Shown in pieces: positions 2,659 through 27,651 of a stretch of DNA of 28,183 bases (its first letter is position 1; each line of letters starts with the position of its first letter). Below the pieces are notes generated by a model. It was not told where the DNA came from. It ran no database searches and was given only the letters and a program-made list of their open reading frames with translations. A program made the translations under genes and the position numbers. The stretch is from a virus: IMG/VR virus record IMGVR_UViG_3300046532_003546, positions 1 through 28,183 of that record; one strand, given 5' to 3'.

Positions 2659-3759
2659 TTACGGTTGTGGCCTAGGCTGTGCAGGTTTTATACCCCAAAA
2701 TTGTGGGTTATTCTGAACATCTTGTTTCATTAAAATAGATGCTACATCTGTTCCTGGGTGTGCACTAGCAACATCAATAAATTTGGTTGAAGGTTTTCTT
2801 TCTTTCATAGTTCTTGCATGCGAACTATCTATATCAGTAAGATTTTTAACCATATCTGCTGAAGGTCCGCCAACCTCTTCTAATCCTTTATCAATTGACT
2901 GTCGTATATAGGCTCCAGCTGCTAAAGGGTCTTGACCCATTGATGGGGCAAAATGATATAAAGATTCCCAGTACTTAGCTACTACATCTGGATCTTCTTT
3001 TGTAAGGGTTGGATGAGCTTTAAGCATTTTTTCAAAATAATCTTTTCCTTTAGCCTTATGACCATGCTCCTCAATCTTATCAATAACTTTGTCTATAAAG
3101 GCTTGAACAGACTGTAATACAGAGCCAGCTACGATACTAGCGGCAATATAAGGAAGCCATCCCTGTGCTTTTCCCATCATTCCACCTACTTGTGCTTCCT
3201 TCTTAAATTCTTCCATATACTTAGAAATAAATCTTTGTTTAAAAGATGCTTTTTTATGGAATGGATGGGATGGGGATTTTTTACCTCTAATAGCTCTATC
3301 TCCTATATCATATGCAAAAGCTCCTACACTAGCTACTACCTTTCCTACATCCTGTGCCGGTTTAGAATTAGTAATTTGTTTTGCCATTGCTTTAATTTTG
3401 TTAGCAGGCCATTTAGGGTATGCTTTTTTAACAGCGTCATATGGCTTCATTCCAGCCTGTAAATTGTGTTTTACTTTATCGTAATTAGCAACTTTTTTTA
3501 ATTTCATTCTATAATTAGGCTGCCCCATATAAGATAGTGCTGCTACTGCTGGGACTACTATTCCGCCAAACTTAGCTCCATGTTTTAAGGCATTAGGGTT
3601 TCCAGCATTAAATAATGTAGTTAATACTCCAGAAGAAACACCTGTGCTTACTCCACGTTTTAGAGCTCTCTTAGCTTTCTGTTTTTTAGATTGTTTTTTC
3701 TTTTTCAGGACATACTTTTGTTCTGCTAATTTATCGAAAACTTCTGCTGCTTTGCTCAT
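2659..3759 (-). CDS. Unrecognised head-region protein with N-terminal KLA tag
   Basis: A 366-aa basic protein beginning MSKAAEVFDKLAEQKY, the FDKLA form of the recurring tag. A Lys-rich stretch follows (residues 18-35), then hydrophobic Gly/Ala segments (about 45-80 and 195-220) that could contact membrane. Internal HKKASFKQRF and EEFKKEAQVGG repeat the K-x-A motif near residues 170-190. The last third is soluble and helical. The start overlaps the upstream stop as TAATG, so translation is probably coupled. It sits between the terminase and the prohead protease, but its length and lack of portal features do not support calling it a portal. Function unknown. Confidence 0.82.
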   Translation of the reverse strand: MSKAAEVFDKLAEQKYVLKKKKQSKKQKAKRALKRGVSTGVSSGVLTTLFNAGNPNALKHGAKFGGIVVPAVAALSYMGQPNYRMKLKKVANYDKVKHNLQAGMKPYDAVKKAYPKWPANKIKAMAKQITNSKPAQDVGKVVASVGAFAYDIGDRAIRGKKSPSHPFHKKASFKQRFISKYMEEFKKEAQVGGMMGKAQGWLPYIAASIVAGSVLQSVQAFIDKVIDKIEEHGHKAKGKDYFEKMLKAHPTLTKEDPDVVAKYWESLYHFAPSMGQDPLAAGAYIRQSIDKGLEEVGGPSADMVKNLTDIDSSHARTMKERKPSTKFIDVASAHPGTDVASILMKQDVQNNPQFWGIKPAQPRPQP

Positions 3760-14582: not shown

Positions 14583-15317
14583 CTAAATACCTAAATCTTT
14601 CATTTTCCCTCTGAGACTATCAATACCTCTTTCATACATAGCTTGATCAGGGTGGCTATCATATACATCTGCCTTTTCTCCTTTAGATTTATTGATATAT
14701 CTATTAGCTATATCTTTGTCAGGCTGCTTCATTGACTCTCTTCTTTTCTTAATCTTTGAAGCTTCTTCGTCCAAACCCTCTGGTGCCTGTGAAAAAGGCA
14801 TATTCCCTGCATAAATTCCTGCTGGAGAGTCTGTTGTGTTGGTTGAAGAAACGCCTTGCTCTTGCTGACGTTGTTGTATTTGTTCCATCATATCATTAGC
14901 CGTTTGTTGACCATCACCTCCACGTGTCCAATCAAGATTACCTTCATCTCCAAACCAATCGTCTTTTAATGAAGCTATGACACCTTCCGGTAGTCCACTA
15001 TCTCTAAGGTTCTTATATACTGCGTGCATATTATCTATATTAGTTGATGATGACCCTATATAAGGATTAACATTTGCTACATATTTTTTATAAGAATCAG
15101 CTCCACCAGATACTGTTTCAAGAGTTTTACCGATAATTTCACTCTTCTTAAGAGTAGGATATTTTTTCACAAGCTCTCTTGTTGTATATTTCTTACTTAC
15201 AATGTCTGCATTAGCCTTATCTTTTTGAGATACTACTTTTTTAGCTGCTGGTTTTTTAGCCACTGGCTTTTTCTGTGCCTGCTTTAGTAATCCAAAAAAT
15301 GGTGATAGTGTTCGCAT
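14583..15317 (-). CDS. Unrecognised 244-aa protein
   Basis: The N-terminus MRTLSPFFGLLKQAQKKP has a tag-like FFGLLKQA, followed by a Lys/Ala/Pro-rich basic stretch (KKPVAKKPAAKKV). The middle is mixed helical (TTRELVKKYPTLKKSEIIG). A Gln-rich stretch near residue 150 (EQIQQRQQEQG) precedes a charged tail. The stop is TAG. AAGGAG lies upstream and the start overlaps the 284-aa gene as TAATG. No family was recognised. Confidence 0.82.
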   Translation of the reverse strand: MRTLSPFFGLLKQAQKKPVAKKPAAKKVVSQKDKANADIVSKKYTTRELVKKYPTLKKSEIIGKTLETVSGGADSYKKYVANVNPYIGSSSTNIDNMHAVYKNLRDSGLPEGVIASLKDDWFGDEGNLDWTRGGDGQQTANDMMEQIQQRQQEQGVSSTNTTDSPAGIYAGNMPFSQAPEGLDEEASKIKKRRESMKQPDKDIANRYINKSKGEKADVYDSHPDQAMYERGIDSLRGKMKDLGI

Positions 15318-20196: not shown

Positions 20197-20631
20197 CTAC
20201 GCCTCCGGCACATCGGCCAGCGACAGGTAGACCGGTAACCCGTCTGGCGACGCTAAGTAGAATGAGTCGTCATAGTAAAGAGTTCTGCCTGTTACCAACT
20301 TAATTGTGTCTTTATCTAAAATAAATAAGATCTTGTTACTCAAATAAACAATGTCGTTTCCATGTAAACAATCATCAAAGTAAACCCCGAGTTCTAAATC
20401 CCCCGAGACGCCGGTTTCCTCACATTCAATTCTAATATATGCATAATCTGGTGCCTTAGTTTTACGCTTTAAACGAGTAAATTGCCTCTTAGCCTCATCA
20501 CTAACTTCTAGTGGGGAATTGCTCGATGCACGGTATAGCTTTACACGCGTTCTACGTACGTTTTTAAGCCCTTTCTGCACAATTTTGGCCTCCTGAGGTT
20601 TATTAGCATATGTTGATGACATTATTACCAT
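20197..20631 (-). CDS. Unrecognised 144-aa protein
   Basis: A soluble protein with a basic N-terminal half (KGLKNVRRTRVKLYRASS) and a beta-rich acidic C-terminal half (YFDDCLHGNDIVYLSNKILF, later YYDDSFYLASPDGLPVYL). Two candidate starts lie close together (MVIM, then MSSTYANKP four codons in), with no strong Shine-Dalgarno. Its composition is more GC-rich than its neighbours. It has no tag motif. The stop is TAG. Confidence 0.75.
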   Translation of the reverse strand: MVIMSSTYANKPQEAKIVQKGLKNVRRTRVKLYRASSNSPLEVSDEAKRQFTRLKRKTKAPDYAYIRIECEETGVSGDLELGVYFDDCLHGNDIVYLSNKILFILDKDTIKLVTGRTLYYDDSFYLASPDGLPVYLSLADVPEA

Positions 20632-23708: not shown

Positions 23709-24539
23709 TTAATCTCTATCCCCATCTTCTTTCTCTGGGCTTTGCTTCTTTCTTCTCTCTTTTCTGCACTCTGCTATAGTATAGGTATCGTCATATATAA
23801 ACTGATAGTCATTTTCATCTAACAAGTTACATATTCTATCTATAGGTATAAAATAACCCATATGAGTAATTGCATCTGCTGAGAAACCCATCGGTTGGAT
23901 GGAAATTCGTGATGGAACACCTATATACTCATAGCTTTTTCGTGAGTTTGACCACCTGTATACAGCCCCACCACTATTACCATAAATAGTTTGTGCAGAT
24001 GACATCCAGTACTTGTAGTGATCAATTTCATCGTCCATGTAGGATATTAGTCCTTCTGAAGCAATGGGTGGGTGTCCTAAAGACGCTCCAACGGCGTAAC
24101 AACTATCAAAGATGTGTACACTCTCTATTTCTTTAACAGGGAATAGTTTGGCTACATGGTCATTAATATTCTCTTTGTCTCTAATTCTTAGTAGAGCCCA
24201 ATCCTGTCCACCATCTACCTCAGAATAAGCAACGATATCTGCCTCCATTGCAAAAGACCCCACACAATGAGAGTAATTATTGTATCTAAAGAACTCTACA
24301 TTAACAGTGTCTAATTTCTCAGTATCAACTTTTCGTTTGAACGTTGGGTTCCATTTCTTTTCTACATCTATACACTTTTCAACTACGTGGTGATTGGTAA
24401 TAATGTATGTATGAACTTCTCCATCATGTTTTTTAGAATAGACTACTGTACCAGATCCGCCCGACTGCTTTGATCTAACCCTAACAGTGGGATAAAACAT
24501 CTCTTCGTGTTTTTGCTTTATTTCTTTAAATACTCCCAT
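23709..24539 (-). CDS. Trypsin-like serine protease
   Basis: 276 aa with a full S1-type triad: His in YIITNHHVV (residue 50/51), Asp in DWALLRI (D113) and Ser in IYGNSGGAVY (S189, GNSGG). GSGTVVYS precedes the His strand as in HtrA-like peptidases. It has no signal peptide and no PDZ domain. The C-terminus is highly charged (ECRKERRKKQSPEKEDGDRD). AAAGGAG lies upstream of the ATG. It sits in the tail-type operon between the amidoligase-SET gene and the Ala/Thr-rich gene. The substrate could be a virion protein or a host protein. All four Trp are TGG. Confidence 0.87.
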   Translation of the reverse strand: MGVFKEIKQKHEEMFYPTVRVRSKQSGGSGTVVYSKKHDGEVHTYIITNHHVVEKCIDVEKKWNPTFKRKVDTEKLDTVNVEFFRYNNYSHCVGSFAMEADIVAYSEVDGGQDWALLRIRDKENINDHVAKLFPVKEIESVHIFDSCYAVGASLGHPPIASEGLISYMDDEIDHYKYWMSSAQTIYGNSGGAVYRWSNSRKSYEYIGVPSRISIQPMGFSADAITHMGYFIPIDRICNLLDENDYQFIYDDTYTIAECRKERRKKQSPEKEDGDRD

Positions 24540-24562: not shown

Positions 24563-25681
24563 TTAATCTATTATGTCGTATAGGGTATAATAAGTAGTTA
24601 ATTCTTCGCCTTTATCTATCTTACGTAAACTAACAATATTATTTACTCCTAGCTCTTGGTCTGTTATTCTACAATTCGGTTCTTCGGAATGATTTATAAA
24701 TCCACCTAAAGGTGTTCTAACAATAGTCCCCTCAAATATATGCCTAGGACCACTAAACCCTACATGTGACGGTCCGAAGTTATATCCCATCTCAAAGTTT
24801 TCCGTTACAAACAATCCTAACCCCTCTATATTGGATTTCTTTATTGTTACTCCCTTTGGTAAGGGTCTATATGTCTCCTGCTTTTCCACTTCTATCACTC
24901 CTTCTAATTCTTTATATTTATCTCCAAACTCTTTTTGCTCTATAAGCTGCATATATAAATTAGTTCATTTTTTTATAATATCAAACTCTAAAGTTGATTC
25001 GGCATATCTAAATTCTACTGTTCCAAAATCTCATAAACGTAAAAAGTTAAGCCCTGCCAAAGTATTTCTCATGAGTACATTAGAAGATACGCGCTTCCTA
25101 TTAAACTTGTCTTCTCTGGGGGCTCATACTTTGTGCGCCTTAAATCTTAAGCATTTTTCTAATAAAGTCTTGCGCTCTTCGACTGTCGATGTAATAGGTT
25201 TGCGAAATAAATTATTATAGTGTAATCCTATAGTTCTGCAAAACCTGCTTGCGGGATGTCCAGGCCTTCGCTTGATGGGAATAAGTTTTATAATTTTTAC
25301 TTCGTTTAATAAAACTGCCATTATTAGATCATAAAACTCATTAACATCCTTTTTGTCCCTCCAGTCACTGATATCAACATGTATATGTAATCCACAAGTA
25401 TATTTAGTAAAGCACTCAACCGACTTTAGATATTCTAAATAGGGTTTTAAGTCTATAAAGCTATCTCATGATAATATCGGAGAAACTAATTCTAGGGAGT
25501 GCTGTCCCAATTTACTGGGTATGCTATCATCTGGAACTATTTTTCAAAAAACCGTAATACTGTGTAATTCTTCTGGGTCTTCGATATACTTTACATCTTG
25601 TCCTAACGACACTAATTCTTCTTCTAACTTTTCTCCACTCAACGGAGAAACAAATTCTACTTCAACTCCAAACGATCGCAT
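24563..25681 (-). CDS. Amidoligase-SET domain fusion (five in-frame TGA)
   Basis: A 372-aa protein recovered only with TGA = Trp at residues 46, 72, 186, 217 and 239. Residues 1-240 fit the putative amidoligase family (PF12224, COOH-NH2 ligase): FGVEVEFVSPL at the N-terminus, FWKIVPDDSI, LELVSPIL, CGLHIHVD (96-103) and GTVEFRYAEST (220-230). Residues 271-372 form a SET domain: IEGLGLFVT, GFINHSEEPNC (327-337) and GEELTTYY (358-365), the SAM-binding and catalytic motifs of lysine methyltransferases. The ATG overlaps the spike-like gene stop as TAATG. One polypeptide would join amide-bond formation with lysine methylation, so both may modify the same protein (inference). Confidence 0.85.
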
Positions 25682-27651
25682 TACACTCCAGATTTAAAAC
25701 TAGTAGGTATTTCTCCCAGAGCGTTGGGTACCGCACCTAGAGTTAAAGCTGGTAATGCTGCTGGAGCTATTACGTTTGGTCCCATAGGTCCTAAACTGAA
25801 GAATCCTGCATTTTGTACTAACCAGTCAACGAGTCCTGCATTTGCAAATGATACTCCATTCATTTGAACACCTTTTGCTGCGTCTACGGTAAACTCAAGA
25901 AGCCCTGCTGTTATAGTAACTTTTCCAGCGGCTGAGTCTAATTTTATACTGCAGGCTCCCGCTGCTGCAGAAAGTGTCATGCTCGTAGCGTCCGCTTCTA
26001 TTGATGTTGCTCCATTAACAGACTGTAAAGTTGAGCCAAGAGCAGTTAATTCTAATGATGATGAAGTGCCACCCGTACTATGATTTAAAGTAGTGCTGAG
26101 TGCAGTGTGATCTGTAACTAGTGTTCCTACATCTACTCCAGCTGAGAAAAGACTCTCTAACTTCATTTCGAGTGGTGACATATCAAAGGTATGCTTATTC
26201 CCCGTTATATCAGTAAGTTCCATTGAATAATTAAGGCCCATTTTTGCCACATTTATTCCCACTCGTTCTGTGTAAGTTTGTTGGGGAACGAACCCTAGTT
26301 GATTATCTATAGTTCTCATATACATATCAGGGTCAGTGATTATTGCTTCTCCACCATATTGTTCATCTACAAACATACCTGTTCCGGGAGCAGATGTTGC
26401 ATGCATATGTTTTCTAGATATACTATTATAATAGGGTTGTGCTAATAATAAGGGGCTACTAAGTTTTCCTAAAGACTCTGTGTATGATTCTAGTGCATTC
26501 TCACCGTCAGCTTCTTTGTAGCCAACTCCTCTGCCTAACGGGTCTGCTATTGGTATCCCTAAAGGAATATTTAGTTGGAGTCCTTGATGGATTTGTTTAC
26601 GAAATACTTCTCCAGTTAAAAAGTCAGTTGGTATTACCGACGCTGCTGGAGCAAGAGGCACTTTAGTACCATGATCTCCATCCAACTTTCCATATCTCCA
26701 TAAAAAGGTTCCTACATTTCCTGGTACATTTCTTTTGGCTGTCCAGTGAATTAAATTACCAGAATTTCTAAAATCTGTACCTGATCCAGGATAATGTCCT
26801 CCTTGAAAACCTACCTCTAATTTTGTTACAGCATCTTTTTGCATAGGGTTAGCACCGGAGGAGTTTCTGGTATCTAATACATATGGGTGTGTTGCTATAT
26901 CCTCATATACTTGTGCTGCATTGTGTATTCTTCCCCCACGGACTACTGCTTTATTAATATAGGGTGACGTGAGTGGTACTAAAGCAACTTCTTCCGTATC
27001 CATTTTTTGGTCGGAGTCTATTTGTGTTTCCTGTTGTTGGACAAAAGAAGATGTATGAGAAGTTCTTTCCTGAATGCCTGGGCTAGAAAGCGGGTCAAAC
27101 TCTATATATTCGTTTTTATAAATCCCCACAGCACTACGCATGGTCAATCTTTTGTTAGAAATATCTATAAATTTTCTGGGACCGCTAATCTGTAATCTTG
27201 CAAATGTTCCTGCTGCAAGAGTCATTACCCCTTCTTTAGTCATTTTAAAAACGTTCTTAGCTCTTCCACCAATCTTAAGATAGAAATCTCCCTGCTCCAA
27301 TGTCTCTGCACTAAGTGATCCCTCGGTAGCTATGCCCAGATCAGGTAAAAAAGTAATTATTTGTGCTTTGGTCATCTGGGTATTACCTGCTGTAGGTACA
27401 TAAGCTAAACAATGTGACCCCTTAGGAGGTGCAGATTGTATTCCAGCTCCAGTAGCTTCAACAGCAGTAAAGCTGGGAACCTCTGCCTTTATATATGGGG
27501 GCTCTGGTAGAGCGCCATACTCGTTGATATATATGGTACGTCTTCCAGTATCTGGATCAATATCAATATCAGCAATATATGCCCTGATAATCTGGTATCG
27601 GTTTTCTCCTCGTTTGGATAGTCTTTGTGCGACTTTGTCTTTTAATCCCAT
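25681..27651 (-). CDS. Baseplate/tail-spike-like protein, 656 aa
   Basis: The N-terminal 120 residues are beta-rich and OB-like (YQIIRAYIADIDIDPDTGRR; KGSHCLAYVP). The middle is Gly/Pro/Asn-rich with many aromatic turns. Residues 525-610 show short repeats of hydrophobic-x-hydrophobic strands (SIEADATSMTLSAAAGACSI, KVTITAGLLEFTVDA), as in triple-stranded beta-helices of tail spikes. The last 40 residues are Pro/Ala-rich. No enzymatic motif is seen. It is the first gene of the operon, with its ATG 5 nt beyond a -10 box and no Shine-Dalgarno. No TGA is used. Spike or hub is an inference from fold-like features. Confidence 0.75.
   Translation of the reverse strand: MGLKDKVAQRLSKRGENRYQIIRAYIADIDIDPDTGRRTIYINEYGALPEPPYIKAEVPSFTAVEATGAGIQSAPPKGSHCLAYVPTAGNTQMTKAQIITFLPDLGIATEGSLSAETLEQGDFYLKIGGRAKNVFKMTKEGVMTLAAGTFARLQISGPRKFIDISNKRLTMRSAVGIYKNEYIEFDPLSSPGIQERTSHTSSFVQQQETQIDSDQKMDTEEVALVPLTSPYINKAVVRGGRIHNAAQVYEDIATHPYVLDTRNSSGANPMQKDAVTKLEVGFQGGHYPGSGTDFRNSGNLIHWTAKRNVPGNVGTFLWRYGKLDGDHGTKVPLAPAASVIPTDFLTGEVFRKQIHQGLQLNIPLGIPIADPLGRGVGYKEADGENALESYTESLGKLSSPLLLAQPYYNSISRKHMHATSAPGTGMFVDEQYGGEAIITDPDMYMRTIDNQLGFVPQQTYTERVGINVAKMGLNYSMELTDITGNKHTFDMSPLEMKLESLFSAGVDVGTLVTDHTALSTTLNHSTGGTSSSLELTALGSTLQSVNGATSIEADATSMTLSAAAGACSIKLDSAAGKVTITAGLLEFTVDAAKGVQMNGVSFANAGLVDWLVQNAGFFSLGPMGPNVIAPAALPALTLGAVPNALGEIPTSFKSGV

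Follow-up and report, generated by a model that had tools for sequence, protein, structure and literature searches.

A phage gene read with TGA as tryptophan joins an amidoligase domain to a compact SET domain and retains a putative start signal between them

Results

As shown in Table 1, the window analysed here, which is the whole 28,183-nucleotide stretch of the viral record IMGVR_UViG_3300046532_003546, carries a single frame in which an amidoligase domain is followed by a compact SET domain when TGA is read as tryptophan. A preliminary description of this DNA had placed a 372-aa protein at 24563-25681, with an amidoligase in residues 1-240 and a SET domain in residues 271-372; the coordinates and the length were right, the gene lies on the minus strand, and the Pfam and PHROG profiles put the two domains at residues 2-245 and 270-372. 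The frame has 372 codons with five in-frame TGA codons and no TAA or TAG, and in 1000 dinucleotide shuffles of this region neither strand ever gave a frame of 372 codons without TAA or TAG, 176 codons being the longest; the length of the frame is not due to chance. Under the standard code the frame is split, the pieces of at least 60 aa being 129 aa (24563-24952) and 65 aa (25124-25321) long, and the amidoligase is lost, as the preliminary description had maintained. The one-base meeting of gene ends at the upstream side of the fusion gene recurs at other junctions of the window, e.g., at positions 3759, 12901 and 18152. As for the two neighbours, the one said to encode a serine protease does so, while the supposed spike-like gene found no backing, the 656-aa product of this upstream gene having no family match in Pfam, PHROG or NCBIfam at E values up to 1 and none by tblastn among 50,697 phage records. 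The fusion protein gave no anti-phage defence match in a PADLOC search, and the protease gave weak PADLOC matches to PDC-S45 (7e-7) and LmuA (1e-6).

Table 1. Features of the fusion gene and its neighbours in the window
Feature	Position	Strand	Remarks
Whole frame, 372 aa with TGA as Trp	24563..25681	minus	start ATG 25681-25679; stop TAA 24565-24563
Amidoligase_2 domain (glutamine-synthetase fold), residues 2-245	24947..25678	minus	profiles and model
Compact SET domain, residues 270-372	24566..24874	minus	profiles and model
Internal Shine-Dalgarno AAGGAG (24903-24898), 8-base spacer, GTG Val265 (24889-24887)	24887..24903	minus	probable start of a free 108-aa SET protein
TGA codon 46, first of five in the fusion gene	25544..25546	minus	Trp column in 39/40 amidoligases
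TGA codon 239, last of five in the fusion gene	24965..24967	minus	Trp column in 37/40 amidoligases
Upstream neighbour, 656 aa, without family match	25681..27651	minus	TAA/ATG one-base overlap with the fusion gene (TAATG)
Downstream neighbour, trypsin-like protease	23709..24539	minus	PF13365, E 5.1e-12

The reading of TGA was examined over the 34 called genes of the window, which together contain 23 in-frame TGA and 62 TGG codons; in-frame TGA is present in 10 genes besides the fusion gene. When window TGA sites were aligned by tblastn to four related phages (G051 to G054), nine sites could be compared, and the relatives carried tryptophan at seven, serine at one and a stop at one. Because tryptophan stands at seven of the nine aligned sites, TGA is taken to encode tryptophan in this phage lineage. 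In the stretches of the relative G051 (locus L097) that were checked, all in-frame stops were TGA, and no tRNA genes were found in the window. Within the fusion gene, strongly conserved tryptophan columns of 40 amidoligases coincide with TGA codons 46 and 239 (Table 1), and codon 217 aligns with a column that has tryptophan in 14/40, while codons 72 (0/40) and 186 (1/40) are not conserved as tryptophan. The SET half has no TGA codon, all five being located in the amidoligase half, ahead of the internal start. TGA and TGG are unevenly distributed over the window genes (permutation p 0.00045); five of the six tryptophan codons of the fusion gene are TGA, with p 0.004 for that gene alone, uncorrected for the 25 Trp-bearing genes. 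The terminase of the window uses TGA at none of its nine tryptophan codons, and a capsid-type gene is also without TGA.

The terminases of the four related phages are 55-63% identical to that of the window. In the aligned stretches, G051 holds seven in-frame stops, G052 and G053 none and G054 one (G052 to G054 comprise loci L098 to L113), and on these alignments the code change appears to have happened within one phage group. In G054 (L113:7291-9882) the match to the terminase falls into two segments, covering window residues 5-151 and 153-514 and about 1.07 kb from each other, as if an intron or some other insert lay between them.

The N-terminal half matched the Pfam profile Amidoligase_2 (PF12224) with an E value of 5.6e-21 (76 bits, the cut-off being 22; covering positions 3-243 of the 245-position profile), and the amidoligase family PHROG 2443 spanned residues 2-249 (E 1.6e-15). 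All of the amidoligase motifs are kept (ExE, W-K, D-x-S, E-VSP, CGxHxH, N and E-x-R), including E7, E9, D51, S53, E64, H99, H101, N212, E223 and R225, which are invariant or nearly so in the 40 amidoligases. An arginine that is invariant in 40/40 amidoligases is Thr207 in the fusion, with Arg205 two residues before it, so the ligase activity of the fusion is not assured. The two halves were modelled from separate alignments, and the models cover each half rather than their mutual arrangement; an alignment that combined 40 amidoligases with 36 SET proteins was dropped because it misplaced amidoligases onto the SET half. For most of residues 1-150 and 215-250 the amidoligase model was confident; it was poor past residue 262, a region for which its alignment contained no SET rows. 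Structural alignment with VIA-align matched this model to glutamine synthetases (Z 11.8, rmsd 3.0, 180 aligned residues) and, with lower scores, to YbdK (Z 9.7), gamma-glutamylcysteine synthetase (8.5) and the depupylase Dop (8.2). Foldseek gave no match at an E value of 0.001, its best (0.11) likewise being a glutamine synthetase. The amidoligase half is predicted from the model to have a glutamine-synthetase-like fold.

The C-terminal half matched Pfam SET (PF00856) over residues 327-365 (E 2.1e-7; 31.8 bits against a cut-off of 22.4) and all 100 profile positions of PHROG 28741 (E 1.4e-18), a family of 100-aa phage proteins with no assigned function. The residues that are invariant in the aligned phage SET proteins, G287, G289, N330, H331, P335, N336 and Y365, are all kept. 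Against the PDB, a profile of phage SET proteins matched lysine methyltransferases of the KMT2 type (best E 2.7e-11) and vSET (4.5e-10), among the matches listed. The SET enzyme BurB was not among the best 60 of 143 matches of this profile in a PDB set that may or may not include a BurB chain. The SET model had a mean pLDDT of 83.7, its top Foldseek match was vSET, and structural alignment gave Z scores of 12.4 with vSET and 12.7 with MLL1; by this model the half has a SET fold. In a tree of 90 SET proteins the window protein fell in a supported group of 47, where it had a long branch (0.87) and no close sister; its best identity was 54% (to L001). Two tandem SET genes were seen in one viral contig (L197:406-1127). 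Both domain searches of the TGA-as-Trp translation, against PF12224 and SET, which the preliminary description had proposed as checks, exceeded the curated cut-offs, and structure prediction, another of its proposals, set the SET half near vSET and MLL1 and the amidoligase half near glutamine synthetases.

A Shine-Dalgarno sequence and a GTG codon (Val265) precede the SET half in the same frame, six codons ahead of the invariant Tyr271. The anti-Shine-Dalgarno energy of this internal GTG was computed as -8.3, the third strongest among 210 internal in-frame ATG, GTG and TTG codons of the window; the fusion gene's own start is weaker, at -5.2, and 11 of the 34 called starts reach or exceed the internal one. 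With three of 210 internal sites this strong, such a site can arise by chance. We also examined where stand-alone phage SET proteins begin, using 167 distinct frames with the Y.PL motif, drawn from all of the SET loci, four loci without it being set aside. The best start lies 1-12 aa ahead of the invariant tyrosine in 150 of the 167, and the open frame ahead of this tyrosine never exceeds 53 codons. Since the SET proteins of the relatives start where the internal signal remains here, the single 372-aa protein may be just one of two products. In addition, residues 255-259 of the fusion (KYKEL) resemble an RYKEL sequence near the C-terminus of the nearest amidoligases; this likeness, an observation without a test, would fit a join at the natural end of the amidoligase.

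The preliminary description had looked to related phages for the same fusion, and none was seen. The fusion protein matched none of the four records of G051 to G054, which are fragments. A total of 203 viral SET loci were fetched, 80 with the whole protein as query, 43 with an alignment and 80 with a second SET alignment (contigs may repeat); in none of them was an amidoligase present, either joined to SET or elsewhere in the retrieved stretch. Likewise, none of 136 viral amidoligase loci (80 and 56 new, of which in all at least four come from a contig retrieved twice) showed a fusion to SET. Searching the viral contigs with the amidoligase half alone recovered no relative, and an alignment had to serve as query. 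Outside these viral loci, the genome contigs yielded a single locus, L237, whose only match was a weak one to SET, and plasmids gave two weak amidoligase matches. Overall, among the viral loci examined, the fusion was found in one contig only. The pairing of the two domains, for which the preliminary description knew of no precedent, was also absent from the literature searched. That description had counted separate genes in relatives, with a stop between the halves, as evidence against a fusion; SET is a separate gene in all relatives seen, and in the window no stop lies between the halves. Four longer fusions suggested by tblastn (query residues 82-370) were dismissed: in L210 the match runs through many stops in a primase-helicase gene and local tblastn retained residues 243-370 alone, and L212, L213 and L229 were dismissed on the HMM search alone, their open frames having no amidoligase match.

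A separate SET gene near an amidoligase gene was found in four of the 136 viral amidoligase loci (L152, L245, L248 and L279); a fifth with a SET match, L286 (E 9e-4), was not counted. By our reading of the open reading frames, the SET gene abuts or overlaps end-to-end a cyclotransferase-like gene of the amidoligase cluster in L245 (1833-2638) and L248 (5974-6765), and the distance between the SET and amidoligase genes is about 0.8 kb in L279 and about 3 kb in L152. The four loci have similar ParB-like and PAPS-reductase-like neighbours on the same kind of reading, and so may represent only one or two events. When 50 of the 80 loci of each kind were searched as records, PF12224 was found in 0/50 SET-bearing records and SET in 1/50 amidoligase-bearing records. 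With no amidoligase in the 203 SET loci and a SET gene in four of the 136 amidoligase loci, the neighbourhood link between the two families outside the window is weak. Both recur in hundreds of viral contigs, tblastn confirming at least 589 viral stretches for the phage SET and at least 363 for the phage amidoligase.

Phage amidoligase genes usually sit in a cassette: two clusters represented by gamma-glutamyl cyclotransferases lie near 43 and 10 of 86 amidoligase loci, possibly overlapping, and a class-II GATase cluster lies near 23 of the 86. Next to the ten nearest relatives of the amidoligase half (L114 to L123), sequence reading found a GATase-like gene following in all ten and a cyclotransferase-like gene in seven. 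A scan covering 30 of the 34 window proteins revealed neither a GATase nor a cyclotransferase, the fusion gene being flanked by the 656-aa gene and the protease gene; the contig is a fragment, so these genes may lie elsewhere in the genome. Near the SET genes of other phages the clusters include a primase-helicase representative with 32 entries, a terminase with 16 and a portal with nine.

Some other genes of the window were also of interest. A motif of the form hydrophobic-x-K-x-A, e.g., MTKSEELIYKTAAK, MTRAESIFEKIAKK and MGKFFKTA, stands in the N-terminal part of the products of 18 minus-strand genes between 802 and 22924; it is present in the first 30 aa of 18 of the 34 window proteins against 27 of 209 internal 30-aa stretches, is absent from the fusion protein, and may be a shared leader, for example for capsid targeting. 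A 144-aa protein (20197-20631, minus strand) gave a weak, below cut-off match to a HesB/IscA-type iron-sulfur assembly family (TIGR00049, E 1.2e-4), and a 244-aa protein with a lysine-rich N-terminus (14583-15317, minus strand) gave a sub-threshold match to the histone H1-like HC2 (E 0.006).

Discussion

In the present study, a gene was described in which an amidoligase and a SET domain, two enzymes that are usually encoded by separate phage genes, are joined. From the computed frame, code, domains and folds, and from the position and strength of the internal start, we infer, with a probability of about one half, a joining event, two catalytic sites and, probably, a free short form. An amidoligase gene and a mini-SET gene likely stood in tandem and were joined end to start when the intervening stop was lost, in a phage lineage that reads TGA as tryptophan, the second start signal being retained. 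Given intact folds and nearly all of the conserved catalytic residues, a two-activity enzyme with two active sites is predicted: the N-terminal ligase of glutamine-synthetase fold would use ATP to join a carboxylate and an amine, and the C-terminal SET domain would methylate an amine, most likely that of a lysine side chain, with S-adenosylmethionine as the donor. Since the ribosome-binding site and the GTG persist inside the frame, the free 108-aa SET protein is probably also produced. We would guess that the ligase acts on a gamma-glutamyl carboxylate in the cell envelope or in a peptide, and the SET domain on a lysine-rich protein of phage or host. The architecture in the preliminary description was right, and its interpretation as a single protein was incomplete because of the internal start.

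The internal ribosome-binding site is stronger than that of the fusion itself, and SET was never fused in the 203 viral SET loci, as would be expected if the gene mainly yielded free SET along with an amidoligase bearing an inert tail, the stop having been lost by drift, the internal start being the working start of SET and the link having no function. We regard this as rather unlikely, since no stop has reappeared, the frame is unbroken through both halves, and the separate SET gene near an amidoligase in four loci makes the link less accidental. The preliminary description proposed a dual modifier that adds amide-linked groups and methyl-lysine to virion or host proteins, and the one-base overlap with the upstream gene, the strand shared with the terminase and capsid-type genes, and the lysine richness of several window proteins (up to 20% Lys) are in its favour. 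It is nevertheless unlikely, because the supposed spike neighbour has no family match, in other phages the SET genes mostly have replication and packaging genes as neighbours, which argues against one fixed virion target and proves nothing, the GATase and cyclotransferase cassettes of the nearest amidoligases do not point to a virion target either, and the excerpts of the sources used here (PMC5498523, PMC11945000, PMC10945688) give known amidoligase cassettes a cell-wall or metabolic interpretation.

A small-molecule pathway, in which the SET half would methylate a free amino acid and the ligase half would couple it to a carboxylate, seems improbable. The bacterial SET enzyme BurB of Burkholderia thailandensis S-methylates free methionine to S-methyl-methionine according to the part of the source drawn on here (PMC12542666), so a SET domain need not mean a protein substrate, and phage amidoligases are found with GATases and cyclotransferases; against this, the phage SET proteins match KMT2-type lysine methyltransferases and vSET by sequence, among the matches listed, and lysine methyltransferases of this type and vSET are also the best structural matches of the SET model. 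Another, very doubtful reading makes the genetic code itself the switch: the host would stop at TGA and the phage would later recode it, so that free SET would come first and the ligase-SET fusion once TGA is read as tryptophan, the state of the code choosing between a roaming and a ligase-tethered methyltransferase. As far as the excerpt of PMC9523058 goes, a protein whose synthesis depends on a reassigned stop is thought to appear only late in an infection, and if this applied to the window, the free SET would come before the fusion. Against this reading, neither the terminase nor the capsid-type gene of the window has TGA, although on that view late structural genes would be expected to be recoded. 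Finally, that the gene is an assembly artefact or has decayed is hardly credible: it comes from a single metagenomic contig and has five stops under the standard code, but these are TGA alone and never TAA or TAG, TGA occurs in 10 further genes and is read as tryptophan, the conserved residues are kept, and the shuffles gave no frame this long. The joined gene with two active sites is the reading that we prefer.

Compared with known systems, the amidoligase half has the domain and the conserved residues in common with the phage Amidoligase_2 proteins of Arthrobacter phage Salgado (gene 98) and Blautia phage NatCom_24097, at 24-28% identity over the domain; known phage members stand alone or with GATase or cyclotransferase genes, whereas here the domain is fused to SET, as it is in none of the 136 viral loci. 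In the excerpts consulted, phage amidoligase cassettes are read as peptidoglycan modification, superinfection prevention or metabolism (PMC5498523, PMC11945000, PMC11318856, PMC10945688, PMC10580990). The SET half is 41-57% identical to the aligned mini-SET proteins of PHROG 28741, such as Pelagibacter phage Kolga gp27 and cyanophage P-RSM6 CPXG_00131, and shares with them the motifs YxPLP, INHS..PN and ELT..Y; unlike the SET of the fusion, these are separate proteins of about 100 aa. With vSET (A612L) of chlorella virus PBCV-1 the compact SET fold is in common (rmsd 3.8 over 93 residues, 26% identity), but vSET belongs to an algal virus, is annotated as a histone H3 lysine 27 methyltransferase and has no ligase domain, the phage SET proteins being of similar size or smaller. 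For BurB, a fusion to an amidoligase is not described in the part of PMC12542666 drawn on here.

Gene finding with the standard code would give a 129-aa SET protein at this locus and miss the amidoligase. We know of no substrate shown for the phage members of either family, and the fusion, together with the rare phages in which both genes are near neighbours, is a hint that the two enzymes may share a molecule or a site of action. If the internal start works, this would be a gene fusion caught with the old start signal still present.
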